Positions 9,837 to 22,870 of a stretch of DNA of 50,810 nt are shown here, one piece after another. The notes beneath the pieces were generated by a model. That model saw nothing but the letters and a program-made list of their open reading frames with translations, did not search any database and was not told where the DNA came from. The position numbers and the translations under genes are program-made. Every line of letters starts with the position of its first letter. Positions within the stretch are counted from its first letter, which is position 1. The stretch is from Candidatus Daviesbacteria bacterium RIFCSPHIGHO2_02_FULL_43_12. GTDB taxonomy: Bacteria; Patescibacteriota; Microgenomatia; Daviesbacterales; UBA10151. Location: assembly GCA_001776775.1 (NCBI GenBank), contig MFDD01000006.1, positions 2,191 through 53,000 on the forward strand, written 5' to 3'.

Positions 9837-10049
9837 ATGACAACTACCAAAGTTTCACTCGATAATCTCCCTGACCTACTGACCGTTAAAGAAGTCGCTG
9901 AGGTCCTCAGAGTGTCTCCTCTGACTATCAAAAGATGGGGTAAAAGGGGCAAACTTCCCGCTATTCGGATCAACTCGAGGGGAGACAGACGCTACAAAAA
10001 GGAAGCCGTTTTATGGCTCCTGGGAATTACTCAAAAGACTTCAGTTTAA
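9837..10049 (+). CDS. Small MerR/excisionase-like HTH protein
   Basis: 70 aa made almost wholly of one winged helix-turn-helix of the HTH_17/excisionase type: LLTVKEVAEVLRVSPLTIKR, then WGKRGKLPAI, and a wing with RGDRRYKKEAV. Such proteins bind DNA as excision factors or small regulators. No integrase, recombinase or phage gene lies near, so a regulatory role is more likely than excision. A good promoter and an 11-bp inverted repeat across the start point suggest it controls itself. Confidence 0.8.
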   Translation: MTTTKVSLDNLPDLLTVKEVAEVLRVSPLTIKRWGKRGKLPAIRINSRGDRRYKKEAVLWLLGITQKTSV

Positions 10050-13056: not shown

Positions 13057-13444
13057 AGCTATATGTTACTAGTTCCCAGTGACTAGTGACAAGTTTGGCT
13101 ATTTTCGTAAAAAATTCCTTTTCCATTTTTAGCTTGTATTTTTAAGGGTTAAATGATCATTTTCCAGATCACTTTTTTGAGTAAAAAAGATAACCTAAAT
13201 TGACAAATTATCACCAAATTTTGACCCTTCAAAAACTTCCTAGATTTTGAGCTTGTAAACTGAGAAATTGCCTCTTGACGGATCTGCAGACTTTTGTCAT
13301 GATAAATTTAAGGAAGAAATTCCTAGGAATTAGGTTCACAAGTTGGGGGTTTTATCTATTTAAATCGAATTTATCCCACCCTAAACTTCTAACTAAATCC
13401 TAGGCTTTCAACTGCCCGCTATCTGGAAAAGATAGTAAAAATAC
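13057..13444. other. 388-nt intergenic region upstream of giant gene
   Basis: No gene seen. It holds a short heptamer-like stretch (13069-13095), an AT-rich segment, a possible TTGACG -35 (13275-13280), a perfect 14-nt palindrome AATTCCTAGGAATT (13318-13331), a second CCTAGG near 13400, and a GATAGT hexamer (13431-13436) 8 nt before the giant gene's ATG. The palindrome is a candidate operator. Confidence 0.5.
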
Positions 13445-16400
13445 ATGAATAAATTGCTTGGCAAGAGCATCTCGCCCAAGCAGACGGACCATTCGGCCGC
13501 ATCAAACGCGGCACGATCAAACGTGCCTGCCGAGTTTGACTCGGTGGCTTCATCTGTGGTGGCCAAACCAACCCGGGGTTTAATTTCTATTGGTAAAGCA
13601 GCAAAGTATCTGGGGGTATCGATTGACACTCTGCGTAACTGGGAGGAGCAGAAAAAGTTAGTCTCCATTAGGACGGCCGGGGGCAGTAGGAGATATAGGT
13701 TAACAGAATTAAAAAAGTTTGCGATTGCTACTCCTAAACTTGCCAGAAAAATAGAGCAGCACAGTCACCCTAACTTTGAAGATCTCAAGCCAATCTCAAA
13801 AGCTAAAATCCCTGCATCTATATATACTAATGAGCAGCAGGGCGAACATCACTTGGGTTACGCCCCCTCTCCGATCGCTCGGGCGATTAAACAGTTTAAC
13901 CCCAGCTCCATCTTGCCATTGCCACCACCCTTTGTTATCAAGGATAAACCCCGACACCAAGTTGCGAATCATCTTAAGAAAGCTTTACAAATGGGACTAG
14001 GGGGAATTGTTGCAGCCGGATTTATTGTCACCGCCATTATAGTTGGCAGTTACTTCATTAATCCCAGACAAACAAACCAACATTTTGCCCACTCCTCTGC
14101 CCTGTCTCCTTTTAATTCCCTTGCTAAGGGATACCTGTCTATGATACTGCCCCAGAAAGCTAGGGAGTTAGGTTTAAAGAAGTCGTCAGTCGTCAGCCCT
14201 CAGTCGTCAGATAATCTGATAGCTGACAGCGAAGCGAGTCTGAAAGCTGAAAACTCTTCCAACGTCCTGGCAATCATTAACCAGAGACCCGGAACCTTAA
14301 ACATTAACGCCAATACTGCCATCAACGGAACCTTATTGATCGAAGGTGGTGTTCGGGTTACCGGAACAGACGTCAGTGGCTTGCTCCAAAGCATTACCGG
14401 CGGAGATAATGTTACGATTGTCGGTGCCGACTCCCCCAACCCTACTATCTCTGTAACCCTTCCCTCTAATTTAGTTAATTCTTTTGCTACATCTAGTACC
14501 GGAACAAAAGTATCCGGGGATATTATCTTGGGTTCCGGATTATCCCTGGCTACTGCAACTAAAACTATCTCTGTCTCCACCCCAACCCTCTCTTCGGTCA
14601 GAAGTGCCGGTGGATGTTCTGGCTGTATTACTGATGATGATGTCGATAGCGCTCTGACTATCTCATCTTCCGGATCAGTTGCGGTCGGAGCATTATCCTC
14701 GGCTGTAACTATTGCAAAGGGAGGAACGGCACTGACCTCATATACAACTGGCGATATTCTTTATGCTAACTCCTCAGGGACACTCTCTAAATTGGCCATT
14801 GGAACATCTGGCCAATCTTTGGTCGTCACCTCTGGTCTACCTGCCTGGTCATCATCCGGTGCCGGAGTAACCTCCCTAAACAGCTTAACCGGAGAATTAA
14901 CGATAGCGGGGACTTCTAATCAAATCTCGGTGGCAGCATCCTCCACCACGGTGACACTATCTCTACCTTCGACTGTTACTACCACCAACTTAAATGCCTC
15001 GTCTGCCTTGCAGTTAAACGGCACCAATATTAATACCGGTGGAACTCTTTCTAATGTTGCCTACCTGGACACAGCCCAGACCTTTAGCGCAGCGCAGACC
15101 AACTCTACTGCCGGGGCTGCCTCTACCCCAGCCCAGAAACTAACAGGAGCCTGGTATACCGGAGGATCCGGCACAACCACCAAACCTCAACTACTGATTG
15201 AACCAAGCGGAACCACCACCAATGCCTGGTCAACCTCCGGCACTGGTATTGGAGTCAATGCCGCAGCTACCTTTGCCGGAAATTTAATTGATCTGCAGCA
15301 AGCCGCTAACTCCATTTTTTCAATTACCTCAGTCAGTAGTGCTGTTAATGGCTTTAACTTCCTGGCTGGGGCAACCGGATCAGGTGTAGCTATTAGTGCC
15401 GACGGTGGGGGGTCTGATACCAACATCCCTTTAAGTATTGATGCTAAGGGCTCTGGCTTAGTCAAGATTGCGGCTACCTCTACCGGCAATGTTGAGCTAG
15501 CCGGAGGGTCTGCAGCAACCGGATGTACGATCGCCAACTCCACCGGAGCCCTGACTTGTGCCGGGGATATTACCGGTGGCTCAACCGGAACAAGCGGCTA
15601 CTGGACAAGATCAGGAACAACCCTTTCTCCGGCTACAGCCGGGGATGCGATCACTACCTCAGGTAATCTTTCAACCTCAGGATCCGGCACATTATCGATT
15701 GCCGGAACAGCCACTTTTTCATCGACCATTAACACTAATACCTTTAGCTCAACTGCCTTAACCTTTGCCTCAGGCGCAACTACTGCGGTTATCTCGCCGG
15801 CTACAGCCGGAACACATATTGAAGTAGACTCCGGCGGTGGGACAGGGAATATTTTGCTGGGTGGAGGTTCTGGTTCGACCGGGTGTACTGTCTCTGATTC
15901 AACTGGAAACCTAACTTGTGCCGGATCTATTACCGGAGGATCAGAATCTAATCAAGGGTACTGGTCAAGATCGGGAACTACCCTTTCGCCTGTCACCACC
16001 GGGGATGCGATCACTACCTCAGGGAATATTTCTACATCAGGCTCTGGTGCAGTTACCTCAGCCGGGCTCTTAACCGGACAACTTGGTTTAACTATAACCG
16101 GTGCAACCACCAGTATTAATGCCTCCTCTAACTTTGCCACTAATATTAACACCGGCACCTCAACCGGAACTATCTCACTTGGTAACTCAAGCGCCGGAGC
16201 GATTGCCATATCCGGTTCTTCAACTTTCGGAGTAACGACTACTACATCAGCCCAAACTTTCACCAGTGCGGTTGTTTCCGGAACTACTACCTCTTCAGCT
16301 TTTGTCTTTACTGATTCAAGCTTAACTACTGGAACTGGATTGTATCTTGTCTCCTCATCTCTGACTTCTGGAAAACTGGCTCATATTGCTCCGACCTTTG

Positions 16401-19400
16401 CCGGAGCTGGAGTAACAGGCTACGGAGCCTATCTTGAAGGAGCTGATTCAACAACTTCCGCCAACACCGACTACCAACTTTACTCTACTCTAGCTTTATC
16501 AGGCAATGCTGCCAAAACTGGAGTGGGTATATATTCAACAGTAACCAGCTCTTCTACCACCGGAGATACATTAATAGGATTAGACTTGGCTACAAGTGCA
16601 ACAGGTGCCCTAGCTGCCACTCAAACTAGGACAATCTATGGTTTAAGGTCTCAGCCTGCATCAACCGGAGCTTCAAATAACTCTGATGATACATTAAATC
16701 TGTATGGCTCATACTTGGCTCCAACCTCTACCCTAGCCTTGGCTGGTACGACTAATGTTTATGGACAATACATCTCTAATATTGCGACCCATAACGCTGA
16801 TGCCGGAACTGTTAACTCCTATGGACTATATATTGCCAACGGCACCTCCTCTACCAACGGAACTAATACCAAATACGGACTTTATATTGCCACCCCGACC
16901 GGAGCCGATACTAATTATGCGCTCTATATCGCGGGAGGAAATGCCACTTTAGCTGACGGAGCCCTGCTTGACCTCTCGGCGATTAACCTCTCCTCAACTA
17001 CTGAAGGGTTATTGCTGCCTCAAAACGCCACCGCCTGTTCCAGCGCTACCGCTGAGGGACAAATCTGCTGGGACACCTCAACTGATACGCTATATATCGG
17101 TAAGAGTGGTTCAACCGCGGCTGTTGGCCAGGGTGATATCACTGCAGTTGGATCAATGACCTCGGGCGCCGCTTTTGCCGACTCCGGAGCTGATGATGAC
17201 TGGCTGGGACTTGGCTCCGGAGCAGGAAGAATCGAATTTGACGACCAAACTACCGATGAAGTGAATATCCTTTCAGCCAATGTCGGAATTGGTACTCAAA
17301 CTCCTGGAGGTTCCCTGGATGTCTCAGCTGCTAAGTCGCTAACTCCCTCTTTAACTGGAGCCTATCTTTCTTTTTCGGCCTCAACCCTAACTGACTCCGG
17401 TACCGCTGCCTCCGGGACACTGGCTAATGCAGCTTTTAACTCGATTGCCGCCCCGACCCTGGCTGCTACCAACACCTCAGTAGTGACAGACCATGCCTAT
17501 ACTCTATACCTGGCCGGACCCCCAACTGCCGGTACCAATGAAACAATTAATAATAGCTACGCCTTAGGAGTTAATGGTAAAACCCAGCTGGCTAATGCAG
17601 TTGAACTGTCCGGTTCAACCGATGCCACAACTACTGTTGGCACCCGGGTCGAGGGGGCCTGGTCAGTTACTAATCTAGCCGCCGGCACTAATACCTATAA
17701 TTACCGCCGGGCCATTACTGTCACTAATAACGACTCCTCCACTGCCCTGCCAACCAATTATGAGCTCACTATTACCTTAACCACTGGAGCCAGCTCACAA
17801 TCATCTGATGTTTGTGCAACCACCAAAAACGACTCCTCTGACCTGATTGTGGCGAAATTAACTGGCCCGACTGAGATTGCCAGAAATATTACCCGTACCT
17901 CGTGCGCTGCCGGGTCTCAACAGATTGTGGTTAAATTCTTAAATCAAGCTTCAATTGCCGCCTCTGGCACAGCTACCTATTATCTATATTATGGCAACTC
18001 CGGCAGCTCAAACACTGCTCCCACAACCTACTCAACCTCAGCAGTTGTCCTGGATAGTGCAGATAACGTTGGTTCGTGGACCAGTAATGATTCAACTAAC
18101 TTTGCTATTTCCCAGGAGACGACCATCAAACAAGAAGGGACAGGGTCAATCAAGGCAGTTGCTGTTCAAAACTGCTCAACTTGCGGAGATATCGGGGTAT
18201 TCGCAACCACCAACCAGGGACAATTACCGACAACGCGGGCGTATTTTAATACTACGGAAAGTGTTGTAATTGGTGGAACAGGTTATCTCTACTTTATAGG
18301 AGGTGACTGGGCACCAGTTCTTTCAACTGTGTATAAATCTACCATCACTACAGCTGGAGATCTCGGCTCATTTGTAACAACCTCCCAGGCACAGTTACCC
18401 CTTGGCCTATCCTACATGGCCTCAAATATCGTTGATGTTGGTGGTACAAATTATATCTATATTATCGGTGGCTACAACCCAACAACCTATTCAAGCGTAT
18501 ATAAGGCTCAAATTGGCTCAACAGGAAATATTGGAGCCTTTGCTACTACCTCACAAGGACAAATGCTTGAACTTATTTGGCAAAACGCATCTACCGTTGC
18601 AAGCATTAGCGGGACATCATATATCTATGTACTAGGAGATGCTGACGGAAATACTTCAGCCGTCTATAAAGGAATGATTAATCCAGCCAATGGTGATGTC
18701 GGGTCTTTTGCTACCACCTCACAAGGACAACTAAAGGTTGCCACTGTATTTGGAGACGCTACAACCGTCACTATTGGAGGAACTAATTATGTGTATATAG
18801 TAGGAGGAAATACTATTTCCACTGTTTATAAAGCTCAAATCGATACTTCAGCAAACATAGGTTCATTTAATTCTACCTCCCAGGGACAGCTGCCGGCAGT
18901 GATATACAATCCTGCAGTTAATCCTTTTACCATTGGCGGCACGAATTATCTATATGTCTCTGGTGGAGAAGTCTCAACTGTTTATAGAGCAACTCTTGAT
19001 GGTTCGGGTAATGTCGGTTCTTTTGTGACAACTGGGCAAGCACAATTTCCCGCAGCCATTAGAAGCCTGTCTAACATAGTCACTCTGGGTACTTCAAGTT
19101 ACTTCTACGGACTGGGGAATGGCAGTGCATCTGTTGTATATAAAGGAAAAATTACCACTACCTATGATCCATCCGGAGATGTCGGGGCATTTTCTACCAC
19201 ATCTCAAGGACAACTACTCGCTACTCGGCTTCAACTAGGCGGAGCATTGGTGGCTGTCGGCGGGACGAATTATATCTATGCAATCGGAGGGGATTCTGCT
19301 TCAACTGTTTATAAAGCCCAGATTGGATCATCAGGCAATGTCGGCTCATTTGATACTACCTCCCAGGGACAGCTACCGGCCAATATCGAACAAATTGAGA

Positions 19401-22400
19401 ATTCTATTACCACTGCAACTGTCGGAGGAACGAATTATGTCTATCTGGCAGGAGGAAGCGGCGGAGGCTCGGCTTTATATCGAACACAGGTTGATGCCTC
19501 GGGTAATTTGGGCTCTTTTGTAACCACCTCTCAAGGTCAATTAAAAGCAGCTCGGTACGGAACCGGCGCTATCACAGTCAATCAGGCCGGAACCTATTAT
19601 CTCTATAATATCGCCGGTTGGGATGGCGGCGCAGCTACTTCAACGGTATATAAATCTCAAATCGACACCTCCGGCAATGTCGGCTCATTTGATACTACCT
19701 CCCAGGGACAGCTACTGGCTACCCGATACGGAGTAATGGTTGGTCAGGCAACGATTGGTGGAACAAGCTATCTATATGCACTTGGCGGATGTTCTAACGG
19801 GTCTTGTGGAGCAGATGCTACCAGCACAGTTTATAAAGCCCAGATTGGATCATCAGGCAATGTCGGCTCATTTGATACTACCTCCCAGGGACAGCTACCG
19901 GCCAAACGTTGGGAGGGAGCGGTTGTCACACTCTCAATCATGGGCAACTTCCTCTATGTCATCGGAGGAGATGCCGGTACTGGCGCCACCCCCACTTCAA
20001 CAGTTTATAAAGCAGCTATTAACTCAACAGGAGACATTGGCTCTTTTGTGACTACAGGCCAGGCACAGTTACCGGCAAATAATGGGGCAAATCCGGCGGT
20101 GGTAACTAATACGGTTGGCTTTTCCTACCTCTATACCTTGGGTGGGACAACCACTTCAACAGTTTATAAAGCATCTCTGGGGGGTTACGGTGCCCAGCTT
20201 ACTACCTCTGCCAAAAACCTGACTGATTTAGGCGGTCTGCAAATGCAAGTGTATTCCTCCAGGACCGGAACTTATTTAACTTATGATGTTTCCGAAGACG
20301 GGGTGACCTGGACACCCACCTCCAACTCAATTACTATCTCAAGCGCCAACACCTGGGAAACAAAACAGCTGGATATCTCAGGGACTGCTAATGGAGCTAA
20401 AGACGGAATTACCAGAGTAAGAGTTCGGGCATCTGATACGACCTCTGGATTTACGATGTACTTTGACGATATGTCCGGCATTAGCACTGCTTTTAGCGGC
20501 TCATCCCCTTCGGTGGCCCAAGCTGCCAGAATAATCGGTGCAGCTAATTTAATGATTAATGCTCAGGGCACGGGGCTTGTCAGGGTAAATTATGACGCTA
20601 ACTCCAACACCATTGCCGGCTCCGGGGGGCTGACGGTCTATAACGGCGCGACTACTGCCTATTTACAAGTTGATGCTAATGGTAATGTCGTTGTTGGCCA
20701 AGGGGCGGCTCTGGCAACCACCGCCACCAACGGATTCTTATACCTACCCAGCTCTGCCGGCTTACCGACAGGAGTACCAACTTCATACACCGGCTCTTTG
20801 GCGATGGAATATGACTCAACTAATAATAAACTCTGTGTCTATAACGCAGCTTGGAAATGTTCGGCAGCCCTATCTGACTTTGCCGAGTGGGCACCGGCTC
20901 GCGGGGCTGAAATTGGAGATATCGTGGTAACCACCGACGAGGTTAATCCAATTGAGGATTCCGCTTCTCCTTTTATGCTGGGTAAATCCAGCATTGCTTA
21001 TGACCAAAAAATTGTCGGAGTTATCTCTAAATATGCTGAGGATAGTAACGACGCCCATGGCTATAAAAGATCTGATGATTACCACGCGGTGGCCCTGGCC
21101 GGACGTGTGCCAGTTAAAATTGCTTCAAATTCAGCTGCTATTAAAAGAGGCGACTACTTAACTTCTTCCTCTACTCCAGGACAGGCGATGAAGGCGACTA
21201 AACCTGGCCAAATAGTTGGTAAAGCACTCGAAGATTACGATCCCTTAATTAGCAATAAAACTGCAAATCCCGGTATGGTACTCGCTTTTATTCAGCCTGG
21301 CTTTGCTGATCCCCAAAATGCTTTAGCTAATCTATCAATTGAACCTGATGGAACCTTACTGGTGCCAAAATTAAAGGTTGGAGAATTAGGCCTCGATACT
21401 AAACTGTTTGCCCTGGAAGATAGAATTAATCAGCTCAGCCTGACGTCAACAAACACAGAAGATAACTTATTACTAAATAAGCTAGCAGCCTCAAGCGAGA
21501 CTATAGATCCAATTAACGTAGCTTCAAAGCTTCTAACCCTCGATCAAATTCAAGCCACGCAAACTGCGACTTTAGCAAAGCTTGAATCAAGAATCCTCAG
21601 TAATGAATCAAACATCAGTGATAAAGTAGCCTCATTGTCCGCTCAAATCGCTTCCCTCTCAGCAAAACTGGCGAATAAAGAATCCGACAGCGAATCTCTC
21701 TCAAAAGTTTTAGCTGCACAAATTGTCCAACTATCCGAGAAAATAAATTCCTTGCAGCTAAACAGCTCATCTTCAGCCATTGCCGAGGCAAGTAGCTCCA
21801 GCGTCTTCAAGAAATTCTTAGCTGATGATTTCCAACTCACCTCTCCTGATACTTTACTGGCAACAGGAAGTTCACAACTTGCCAGCTTAGCTGTGGCCTC
21901 GGAAGCTACCTTTTCTGGCCGACTAATCGCCTATGACACGATTATCTCCAACTCTTTTAAGTCTTTGGGCGAGACGTTCTTGGGTCAGACAACTATCGCG
22001 GAAGAAGTCAATGTTGACGGCACCCTTTCGGTAACAGGAAACGCCATTAATAGCATTGGGACACTTTATTTGCAAAGCGCTCCCCTTTCTACCAAGCTGG
22101 ATATCTTTGGAGGGAAGCTAGTCATTGATATAGACGGTAACTTGACTACATCAGGAGATATCAAAGCCACCAACCTTGAGATCACCGGAGCGTTGATCAC
22201 CCGGGCCGATGCCGGAGAAGATATTACCATTGGAGATGTAGTATATATTACTGAAGCAGGCACTATTAAAAGGGCCAATGCATCAGATGACTCGTCCTCC
22301 TTGGTGGTCGGTATCGCCGCAGAATCGGCAGAGCAGAATAAACCAGTTAGAGTGGCTATTAGTGGTCGGGTTGGTGGCTTTAAGAATCTGCAAGTCGGTA

Positions 22401-22870
22401 AACCGTATTTCTTGGGTAATAACGGAAAGCTGCTGACAGTGCCAACCAAAGCAGATACCAAAGTCATTCAGGTAGCAATTGCTTTCAATGAAAATAGCCT
22501 GCTTGTCCAGATCCATCCTGATGCCAGCATTAATTCCAAAGTCTTAGGTATTTCAGCCAGCGCTGAGGTCGATCCAAGCTTTAACCTTAAATCCGAGTCC
22601 CCATCTGGTAGTCTAAAAGAGCTGATTAATAATATCGACCAGCAAGAAGCCAGTGGGAGCGCCTCTTCTAGCAAAACTTTGACTGTTAACAACAACACCT
22701 TAGGGTTTTTGAGGGTTAGAAGTAACCCAACAGTTACTGCCGAAGAACTAACCAAGCTAAATATTGGTGATAAATTCCCCGTCCTAGAGCAGCAAAACGG
22801 TTGGTTCAAGATTGAATATACTCCTGCTAATTTCGGCTGGGTGCTAGGATCCTATGTCAGTGTCAAATGA
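13445..22870 (+). CDS. Giant MerR-HTH / single-span / repeat-rich surface protein
   Basis: 3141 aa in one unbroken frame. Residues about 45-95 are a MerR-like winged HTH (ISIGKAAKYLGVSIDTLRNW, then TAGGSRRYRLTELKKF). One membrane span at about 182-202 (GGIVAAGFIVTAIIVGSYF) follows, so the head is cytoplasmic and the rest outside. The exterior has Ser/Thr/Gly-rich beta repeats (about 270-1400), including a duplicated unit with SGYWTRSGTTLSP and QGYWSRSGTTLSP. Then come a DUF2341-like domain (about 1419-1530), twelve kelch-like repeats (about 1583-2253), a phage-tail-like domain (about 2479-2619, FAEWAPARGAEIGDIVV), a coiled coil (about 2630-2795), a second small beta domain and a C-terminal SH3b domain (about 3083-3141). 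No LPXTG is seen. Probably a surface adhesin and a main glycosylation target; the DNA-binding head suggests signalling or tethering. Confidence 0.88.
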   Translation: MNKLLGKSISPKQTDHSAASNAARSNVPAEFDSVASSVVAKPTRGLISIGKAAKYLGVSIDTLRNWEEQKKLVSIRTAGGSRRYRLTELKKFAIATPKLARKIEQHSHPNFEDLKPISKAKIPASIYTNEQQGEHHLGYAPSPIARAIKQFNPSSILPLPPPFVIKDKPRHQVANHLKKALQMGLGGIVAAGFIVTAIIVGSYFINPRQTNQHFAHSSALSPFNSLAKGYLSMILPQKARELGLKKSSVVSPQSSDNLIADSEASLKAENSSNVLAIINQRPGTLNINANTAINGTLLIEGGVRVTGTDVSGLLQSITGGDNVTIVGADSPNPTISVTLPSNLVNSFATSSTGTKVSGDIILGSGLSLATATKTISVSTPTLSSVRSAGGCSGCITDDDVDSALTISSSGSVAVGALSSAVTIAKGGTALTSYTTGDILYANSSGTLSKLAIGTSGQSLVVTSGLPAWSSSGAGVTSLNSLTGELTIAGTSNQISVAASSTTVTLSLPSTVTTTNLNASSALQLNGTNINTGGTLSNVAYLDTAQTFSAAQTNSTAGAASTPAQKLTGAWYTGGSGTTTKPQLLIEPSGTTTNAWSTSGTGIGVNAAATFAGNLIDLQQAANSIFSITSVSSAVNGFNFLAGATGSGVAISADGGGSDTNIPLSIDAKGSGLVKIAATSTGNVELAGGSAATGCTIANSTGALTCAGDITGGSTGTSGYWTRSGTTLSPATAGDAITTSGNLSTSGSGTLSIAGTATFSSTINTNTFSSTALTFASGATTAVISPATAGTHIEVDSGGGTGNILLGGGSGSTGCTVSDSTGNLTCAGSITGGSESNQGYWSRSGTTLSPVTTGDAITTSGNISTSGSGAVTSAGLLTGQLGLTITGATTSINASSNFATNINTGTSTGTISLGNSSAGAIAISGSSTFGVTTTTSAQTFTSAVVSGTTTSSAFVFTDSSLTTGTGLYLVSSSLTSGKLAHIAPTFAGAGVTGYGAYLEGADSTTSANTDYQLYSTLALSGNAAKTGVGIYSTVTSSSTTGDTLIGLDLATSATGALAATQTRTIYGLRSQPASTGASNNSDDTLNLYGSYLAPTSTLALAGTTNVYGQYISNIATHNADAGTVNSYGLYIANGTSSTNGTNTKYGLYIATPTGADTNYALYIAGGNATLADGALLDLSAINLSSTTEGLLLPQNATACSSATAEGQICWDTSTDTLYIGKSGSTAAVGQGDITAVGSMTSGAAFADSGADDDWLGLGSGAGRIEFDDQTTDEVNILSANVGIGTQTPGGSLDVSAAKSLTPSLTGAYLSFSASTLTDSGTAASGTLANAAFNSIAAPTLAATNTSVVTDHAYTLYLAGPPTAGTNETINNSYALGVNGKTQLANAVELSGSTDATTTVGTRVEGAWSVTNLAAGTNTYNYRRAITVTNNDSSTALPTNYELTITLTTGASSQSSDVCATTKNDSSDLIVAKLTGPTEIARNITRTSCAAGSQQIVVKFLNQASIAASGTATYYLYYGNSGSSNTAPTTYSTSAVVLDSADNVGSWTSNDSTNFAISQETTIKQEGTGSIKAVAVQNCSTCGDIGVFATTNQGQLPTTRAYFNTTESVVIGGTGYLYFIGGDWAPVLSTVYKSTITTAGDLGSFVTTSQAQLPLGLSYMASNIVDVGGTNYIYIIGGYNPTTYSSVYKAQIGSTGNIGAFATTSQGQMLELIWQNASTVASISGTSYIYVLGDADGNTSAVYKGMINPANGDVGSFATTSQGQLKVATVFGDATTVTIGGTNYVYIVGGNTISTVYKAQIDTSANIGSFNSTSQGQLPAVIYNPAVNPFTIGGTNYLYVSGGEVSTVYRATLDGSGNVGSFVTTGQAQFPAAIRSLSNIVTLGTSSYFYGLGNGSASVVYKGKITTTYDPSGDVGAFSTTSQGQLLATRLQLGGALVAVGGTNYIYAIGGDSASTVYKAQIGSSGNVGSFDTTSQGQLPANIEQIENSITTATVGGTNYVYLAGGSGGGSALYRTQVDASGNLGSFVTTSQGQLKAARYGTGAITVNQAGTYYLYNIAGWDGGAATSTVYKSQIDTSGNVGSFDTTSQGQLLATRYGVMVGQATIGGTSYLYALGGCSNGSCGADATSTVYKAQIGSSGNVGSFDTTSQGQLPAKRWEGAVVTLSIMGNFLYVIGGDAGTGATPTSTVYKAAINSTGDIGSFVTTGQAQLPANNGANPAVVTNTVGFSYLYTLGGTTTSTVYKASLGGYGAQLTTSAKNLTDLGGLQMQVYSSRTGTYLTYDVSEDGVTWTPTSNSITISSANTWETKQLDISGTANGAKDGITRVRVRASDTTSGFTMYFDDMSGISTAFSGSSPSVAQAARIIGAANLMINAQGTGLVRVNYDANSNTIAGSGGLTVYNGATTAYLQVDANGNVVVGQGAALATTATNGFLYLPSSAGLPTGVPTSYTGSLAMEYDSTNNKLCVYNAAWKCSAALSDFAEWAPARGAEIGDIVVTTDEVNPIEDSASPFMLGKSSIAYDQKIVGVISKYAEDSNDAHGYKRSDDYHAVALAGRVPVKIASNSAAIKRGDYLTSSSTPGQAMKATKPGQIVGKALEDYDPLISNKTANPGMVLAFIQPGFADPQNALANLSIEPDGTLLVPKLKVGELGLDTKLFALEDRINQLSLTSTNTEDNLLLNKLAASSETIDPINVASKLLTLDQIQATQTATLAKLESRILSNESNISDKVASLSAQIASLSAKLANKESDSESLSKVLAAQIVQLSEKINSLQLNSSSSAIAEASSSSVFKKFLADDFQLTSPDTLLATGSSQLASLAVASEATFSGRLIAYDTIISNSFKSLGETFLGQTTIAEEVNVDGTLSVTGNAINSIGTLYLQSAPLSTKLDIFGGKLVIDIDGNLTTSGDIKATNLEITGALITRADAGEDITIGDVVYITEAGTIKRANASDDSSSLVVGIAAESAEQNKPVRVAISGRVGGFKNLQVGKPYFLGNNGKLLTVPTKADTKVIQVAIAFNENSLLVQIHPDASINSKVLGISASAEVDPSFNLKSESPSGSLKELINNIDQQEASGSASSSKTLTVNNNTLGFLRVRSNPTVTAEELTKLNIGDKFPVLEQQNGWFKIEYTPANFGWVLGSYVSVK
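14182..14250. repeat. Heptamer repeat inside giant gene (gtcgtca)
   Basis: gtcgtca units and relatives, read in frame as SSVVSPQSSDNLIADSEASL just after the membrane span. Confidence 0.8.
15521..16060 (+). repeat. Duplicated beta-repeat unit in giant gene
   Basis: Two copies of about 190 nt (from about 15521 and about 15876) encode matching segments with TCAGxITGGS, GYWxRSGTTLSP and GDAITTSGN. This is an internal duplication in the stalk. Confidence 0.7.
18190..20200 (+). repeat. Twelve kelch-like repeats in giant gene
   Basis: Twelve units of about 53-60 codons share G(N/D)(V/I)GSFxTTSQGQL, a GGTNYxYxxGG strand pair and STVYKAQI. A stretch of 77 nt is identical at 19307-19383 and 19829-19905, showing recent duplication or gene conversion. 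Twelve units would fit two six-bladed propellers. Confidence 0.85.

Follow-up and report, generated by a model that had tools for sequence, protein, structure and literature searches.

The window, the whole stretch of 50,810 nucleotides of a Candidatus Daviesbacteria contig that we analyzed, carries a giant gene whose product joins a winged helix-turn-helix (HTH) head, one membrane span, and a very long exterior (Table 1). An earlier note, made from the sequence alone, had described positions 13445-22870 as one unbroken frame, and they do form a single ORF of 3,141 aa. The same note had read residues 45-95 as a MerR-type winged HTH and proposed a search against the MerR and HTH_17 families. 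In Pfam searches with the full-length protein, MerR (PF00376) matched residues 48-84 with an E value of 5e-10 and 39.4 bits, above its curated cut-off of 28.2, MerR_1 matched the head with an E value of 7e-6, and HTH_17 stayed slightly below its cut-off. Pfam gives only MerR-type families here; the ToxR/OmpR-type winged HTH (Trans_reg_C) was not found in the head.

The topology check suggested in the earlier note places a single span at residues 187-205 (KD mean 2.22), where the AlphaFold2 model has a helix (residues 174-205); hydropathy along the giant protein gave no second one. The clean span of that note is thus present, at about 96 residues from the end of the HTH instead of the 85 it had counted. 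Lys and Arg make up 16% of the residues preceding the span and 4% of those following it, and we infer an N-in, C-out topology with the K/R-poor part outside. The exterior comprises 2,936 residues in the window protein and has the Ser/Thr/Gly-rich composition attributed to it before. The full-length Pfam search matched SH3_3 alone in it (residues 3088-3139), in agreement with the SH3b module reported earlier. When it was searched piece by piece in frame, the matches obtained (kelch, Peptidase_G2, shufflon, and phage-cement) were all weak, and the propeller module of the earlier reading corresponds to a weak Kelch_6 match (E value of 0.005). The features relevant to an adhesin are its composition and the SH3 and kelch-like modules only. 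The "SDFAEW..GDIVV" domain also occurs in ORFs without the head and in a signal-peptide-bearing protein resembling a c*-subunit (see below).

Table 1. Features of the giant gene and its upstream region, in window coordinates
Feature	Position	Strand	Basis
Promoter-like TTGACG-N17-CATGAT, TG in front	13275..13303	+	Consensus match only
Predicted palindromic operator ATTCCTAGGAAT, 15 bp after -10	13319..13330	.	N-type PWM rank 2
Second operator (predicted) AAATCTAGGAAG, 27 bp before -35	13236..13247	-	N-type PWM rank 8
Weaker operator-like AATCCTAGGCTT, in leader	13396..13407	+	N-type PWM rank 50
Giant ORF, 3,141 aa, head-span-exterior	13445..22870	+	Single open frame, ATG; layout kept in relatives
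BldC/MerR-type winged HTH, residues 46-90, "N-type", helix SIDTLRNW, wing TAGGSRRY	13580..13714	+	Pfam, phmmer, AlphaFold2, Foldseek
Basic cytoplasmic linker (predicted), residues 91-186	13715..14002	+	Composition; AlphaFold2 (confidence mostly low)
Single membrane span, residues 187-205	14003..14059	+	Hydropathy 2.22; AlphaFold2 helix 174-205; span in 103/104 relatives
Exterior (predicted), residues 206-3141, Ser/Thr/Gly-rich, K+R 4%	14060..22867	+	Composition
Kelch-like repeats, limits approximate, read from sequence	18401..20314	+	Kelch_6 E 0.005; repeats visible in translation
"SDFAEW..GDIVV" exterior domain, residues ~2446-2624	20780..21316	+	Weak Peptidase_G2 match; relatives in 39/57 genomes
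Bacterial SH3 domain, C-terminal, residues 3088-3139	22706..22861	+	SH3_3 E 2.6e-9

Does the head look like a domain that binds DNA? A phmmer search against PDB sequences matched it to BldC (6AMA/6AMK, E value of 4e-5) and SoxR. In an AlphaFold2 model built with 32 relatives, the head has a pLDDT of about 95, and Foldseek ranks the BldC-DNA complex first (probability 1.00, rmsd 1.4-2.1 Å), with RacA-DNA structures also among the fold matches. After the HTH, the model has a short helix, a low-confidence basic linker, and then the membrane span; the classical MerR dimerization coiled coil and effector domain are absent from it at this place. Across 60 heads, the DNA-contact positions are near-invariant (Thr in 60/60, the first helix Arg in 56/60, Trp in 52/60, and the wing Arg in 59/59), and several of the equivalent residues contact DNA in BldC (PMC5859096). 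Neither of the outcomes named in the earlier note as fatal to its claim was found: homologs keep the residues of the recognition helix and wing, and the predicted fold of residues 45-95 is that of DNA-bound BldC. With an HTH and wing, the DNA-contact residues, and a MerR/BldC fold, the head falls in the MerR superfamily (BldC-like). These results support a real DNA-binding-type domain joined through one span to a giant exterior, and we infer that the head binds DNA.

The head is present in 34/57 relatives, and the head-span-exterior design is spread over many Microgenomatia families (Ca. Daviesbacteria and others). Co-occurrence of HTH, span, and exterior in one chain, the check on relatives proposed at the outset, was found throughout: among all fetched loci (ORFs of at least 300 aa), a span follows one, two, or more HTHs in 103/104 distinct heads. 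In the span-bearing heads, HTH and span are separated by 19-140 residues (median 69), with a larger share of K+R inside than outside in 103/103; 27 heads have at least two tandem HTHs. Of the control ORFs, 52/182 showed some span-like segment between residues 60 and 330, and 12/182 showed exactly one. Hence, the recurrence of the layout in 103 of 104 heads excludes a chance fusion. An assembly chimera was rejected as well, the same layout being found in single contigs of many genera, and so was an internal start skipping the HTH, whose codons are kept in frame between genera. Exteriors reach about 4,290 residues and intact head-bearing ORFs 4,508 aa, with class-wide open frames of up to 5,314 aa.

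Other arrangements of the same parts exist. Two loci (L067, L070) encode proteins of 291-355 aa with a tandem HTH, a span, and an exterior of about 115-165 residues. Woesebacteria-type proteins of 179-263 aa have the same HTH and a C-terminal tail-anchor span leaving 5-16 residues outside (L082, L085, L096, L108, L118, L121, L129, L134, L142). The 104th head, without span (L062:6268-7536), is fused to a protein that, read by eye, resembles a cytosine-5 DNA-methyltransferase. The exterior is also found in ORFs without a recognized head, many of them cut by contig ends, so the head is probably not obligatory. At L037:4504-4794 (G016), a head match that lacks the HTH's N-terminal portion continues into a span and giant exterior, possibly as a decayed head or through an unusual start. 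The window genome (G000) has a second head, with tandem HTHs, that is cut off where the window's own contig ends (G000:C6:58272-58914; L050:8272-8913). The window itself encodes a soluble 70-aa protein of the HTH_17 family (9837-10049, plus strand), 3.4 kb before the giant gene; L063 has a near-identical one of 68 aa in the vicinity of its head gene.

The upstream regions of head genes share motifs: AATCTATGTA occurs in 15/61 of them versus 5/1022 control upstreams, and TTGACAAATC in 19/61 versus 6/1022. When heads are grouped according to their recognition helix and wing, each subtype has its own upstream motif, namely AAATCTATGCAA for R-type heads (DTLRRW, GGTRLY), AAACTTAGGAAA for N-type heads (DTLRNW, including the window gene), AAACTTGGACAT for TK-type heads (TKTLRRW, RRY), and ACCTATGCAT for GK-type heads. 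Leave-one-out recovery of the own motif, at a 2% control rate, was 26/30 for R, 12/17 for N (5/17 N-type genes have no site above the threshold), 29/38 for TK, and 8/12 for GK, and motifs of other subtypes were found at a subtype's promoters in 0-2 genes each. At the base that Arg30 of BldC reads (register AATT-N4-C), the motifs of the Arg subtypes have C and that of the Asn subtype has A. One gene with an LRNW helix (L140) nevertheless has the Arg-type AATCTATGCA motif; this putative code is suggestive and not absolute.

Could these motifs simply be inherited with the promoters? For 26/34 soluble MerR proteins with the R-type helix from other lineages, a AATCTATGCA-like site is present within 150 bp, versus 17/557 controls. 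Soluble heads at L088, L095, and L099-L150, including cyanobacterial MerR-resolvases, combine the helix GVSIDTLRRW with AATCTATGCA repeats upstream. The AATCTATGCA repeat is likely the operator of this widespread GVSIDTLRRW head, and a promoter ancestry common to the soluble-protein genes and the giant genes seems unlikely. Among related genera, promoters could have a common ancestry, since 19/435 R-type upstream pairs still align with the motifs masked, but these are few compared with the 160 that align unmasked. The sites overlap the -35/-10 region in 23/26 R-type and 13/24 TK-type genes; in 8/8 scorable N-type genes they are at most 60 bp downstream of -10. Ten-base spacings recur, which would suit head-to-tail cooperation as in BldC. 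Another sequence, GCAGACGGA, stands just before the ATG of many R-type head genes (e.g., L033, L054, L060) and is enriched in head upstreams (18/61 versus 14/1022 controls, p 6e-16).

An N-type position weight matrix (PWM) trained without the window was scored on about 101,000 window positions, and the sites ranked 2 and 8 both fall upstream of 13445, around the promoter-like TTGACG-N17-CATGAT. The AATCTATGCA motif of Daviesbacteria relatives was not found at the window gene; its head belongs to the LRNW subtype with another motif. Most likely, judging from these predicted sites, the head recognizes the promoter of its own gene.

How many such sites does a genome have? With at most one mismatch, the tandem R-type site occurs 10 times in 57 genomes, and in nine of the 10 a head gene follows within about 150 bp; two-mismatch tandem matches away from heads are background (11, versus 9 for a reversed-pattern control). 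The pattern TTGGACA..TGTCCAA has 45 places in 346 genomes, eight of them beside TK-type heads. The window's motif shows no excess in the window genome (8, versus 11 for the reversed pattern), and at this background count no regulon can be called there. Few sites per genome make a large regulon or bulk anchoring unlikely. The only strong tandem site off the head genes, a tandem AATCTATGCAAATCTAGG at about 1500-1600 of L152 (G019), is followed after about 100 bp by an ORF without HTH, by eye a short membrane protein.

We suggest that the giant surface protein is its own membrane-anchored DNA-binding regulator, acting at its own promoter, a reading to which we give a probability of roughly three in four on the strength of sequence and model. 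The BldC-like winged HTH would remain in the cytoplasm, the single N-in/C-out span would anchor the chain, and the exterior of about 2,900 residues would be displayed outside the cell. The head would bind repeated sites in or beside its own promoter in the BldC manner, with the recognition helix in the major groove, the wing in an AT-rich minor groove, and neighboring heads cooperating head to tail. Expression of the gene would then depend on how much of its product is in the membrane, or in what state. Such feedback would count or sense displayed molecules, and surface events might be coupled to the head. The feedback is likely negative, i.e., repression of its own gene, a guess from site position, since the sites overlap the core promoter or sit just downstream of -10.

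Alternatively, the protein could work as a transmembrane one-component regulator like ToxR or CadC, whose exterior senses contact or a ligand and whose head controls other genes. The topology equals that of known transmembrane regulators (PMC10269533), the small forms with short exteriors exist, and the G019 site precedes another, membrane-protein-like ORF. However, no ligand domain was identified in the exterior, and the strong tandem sites are essentially restricted to the head gene's own promoter, with little sign of a regulon. We consider this alternative unlikely, although the heads might act mainly on genes beyond the compared set. The earlier note had also proposed that the head pins the chromosome to the attachment site. 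A membrane anchor for the chromosome or its own locus, comparable to RacA, would accord with the RacA-DNA fold matches, with the predicted binding at the own locus, and with the tail-anchored HTH-span proteins of 180-260 aa in Woesebacteria. The many sites across a chromosome region that characterize RacA were not found: there is about one tandem site per genome, located at the head gene's own promoter, and single sites are without excess in G000. These counts disfavor bulk tethering, which we rejected; anchoring of the own locus is possible, and as an explanation of the head any anchor is improbable.

A second type of head also speaks for the self-regulation reading. In other families, similar exteriors carry tyrosine-recombinase core-binding domains (Phage_int_SAM) in the place of the head, with one to four tandem core-binding domains, a span, and a giant frame of up to 5,382 aa (e.g., L261:4692-11126, L272:2349-9323, L268:4910-10039, L282-L310). 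Matches to this head occur in 104/344 good genomes of the class, some as small separate upstream ORFs. Upstream of the recombinase-headed genes, GTATAATC is present in 10/31, versus none of the MerR-headed genes, GTATAAT in 18/31, versus four MerR-headed, and there are tandem GTATAATCC-like repeats. This argues that the design evolved with two unrelated DNA-binding folds, BldC/MerR-type and recombinase core-binding-type, and since both occupy the same position, DNA binding by the anchored head would be selected, not accidental. HTH-span proteins that bind the cytoskeleton, such as RodZ, exist, but none of our results favors a protein-binding module with no DNA-binding role, and we rejected it as highly improbable: the residues at DNA-contact positions hardly vary, the promoter motifs change with the recognition helix, and in a parallel family an unrelated DNA-binding domain takes the place of the head.

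At more than 20 loci, six F1-ATPase-like genes (c*-b-delta-alpha-gamma-beta) directly precede the MerR-headed giant gene on the same strand (e.g., L054:5809-11519; also L033, L036, L040, L041, L044, L049, L052, L053, L056, L057, L059-L061, L064, L065, L074, and L103). Pfam supports the identity of alpha, beta, and gamma, and most of these genomes have a canonical F1 cluster elsewhere. The product of the c*-like gene has a start resembling a signal peptide and a domain related to one in the giant's exterior; its hairpin is like that of a c-subunit and shows no carboxylate by eye. The window's own giant gene does not adjoin such an operon. In the window genome, contig C12 (L254:1-4698) opens within a giant gene, after which comes the F1-like operon; the head at the end of C6 and the giant at the start of C12 are probably one locus split by assembly. 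In Mycoplasma mobile, F1-like ATPases power gliding together with surface proteins (PMC8406192, PMC11864180), and by analogy a gliding-like apparatus of F1-like ATPase and giant is a lead. The domain that the c*-subunit has in common with the giant's exterior hints at a force-driven apparatus. We hold it possible, though on balance doubtful, that these are a new class of surface machines, in which displayed giants are continuous with own-promoter heads, evolved at least twice, and are often accompanied by a second F1-like ATPase of their own. If so, they would provide one-molecule feedback from the cell surface to the gene.

Finally, how does the self-regulation that we favor compare with known systems? 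BldC, a MerR-like regulator of Streptomyces (6AMA/6AMK; PMC5859096), resembles the head in its winged HTH, and in neither was the classical MerR effector domain found. Its sites (AATTCGGACA) have the same register and repeat logic as those of TK-type heads (AACTTGGACA), but BldC is a free protein of 68 residues, whereas in the giants one such domain, or a tandem of them, continues into a span and giant exterior. IS607-type MerR-resolvases are a possible source of the head domain: some cyanobacterial members have the helix GVSIDTLRRW and the upstream motif in common with R-type heads, but they are soluble recombinases without a span. RacA, a chromosome anchor, has a MerR-like DNA-binding domain, as the giant's head does, and no giant exterior. 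Its role is architectural, not transcriptional (PMC5859096). ToxR and CadC have a DNA-binding domain inside, one span, and a domain outside, as does the giant, which falls under the definition of transmembrane regulators as single chains that combine a DNA-binding domain with one or more transmembrane regions (PMC10269533). The predicted operator positions suggest that the giant, too, influences transcription from the membrane. The giants differ from ToxR and CadC in the BldC/MerR- or recombinase-type head, in exteriors of up to about 4,290 residues that resemble surface or phage-fibre proteins, and in predicted sites mainly at the own promoter. ToxR and CadC have a different winged HTH, and their exteriors run to a few hundred residues. 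In the open-access literature, the scope of our search, we found no description of such a head-span-giant design. The helix/operator pairs AATCTATGCA, AACTTAGGAA, and AACTTGGACA are ready for the study of regulation from the membrane, and the proposal offers a testable answer to how very large surface proteins are controlled in genome-reduced Patescibacteria. The design would work like a transmembrane transcription regulator, set apart by head type, exterior, self-targeting, and convergent heads, and there is a real chance that it is a new kind. If true, no shorter route from surface to gene would be known, the displayed molecule and the regulator being one chain.
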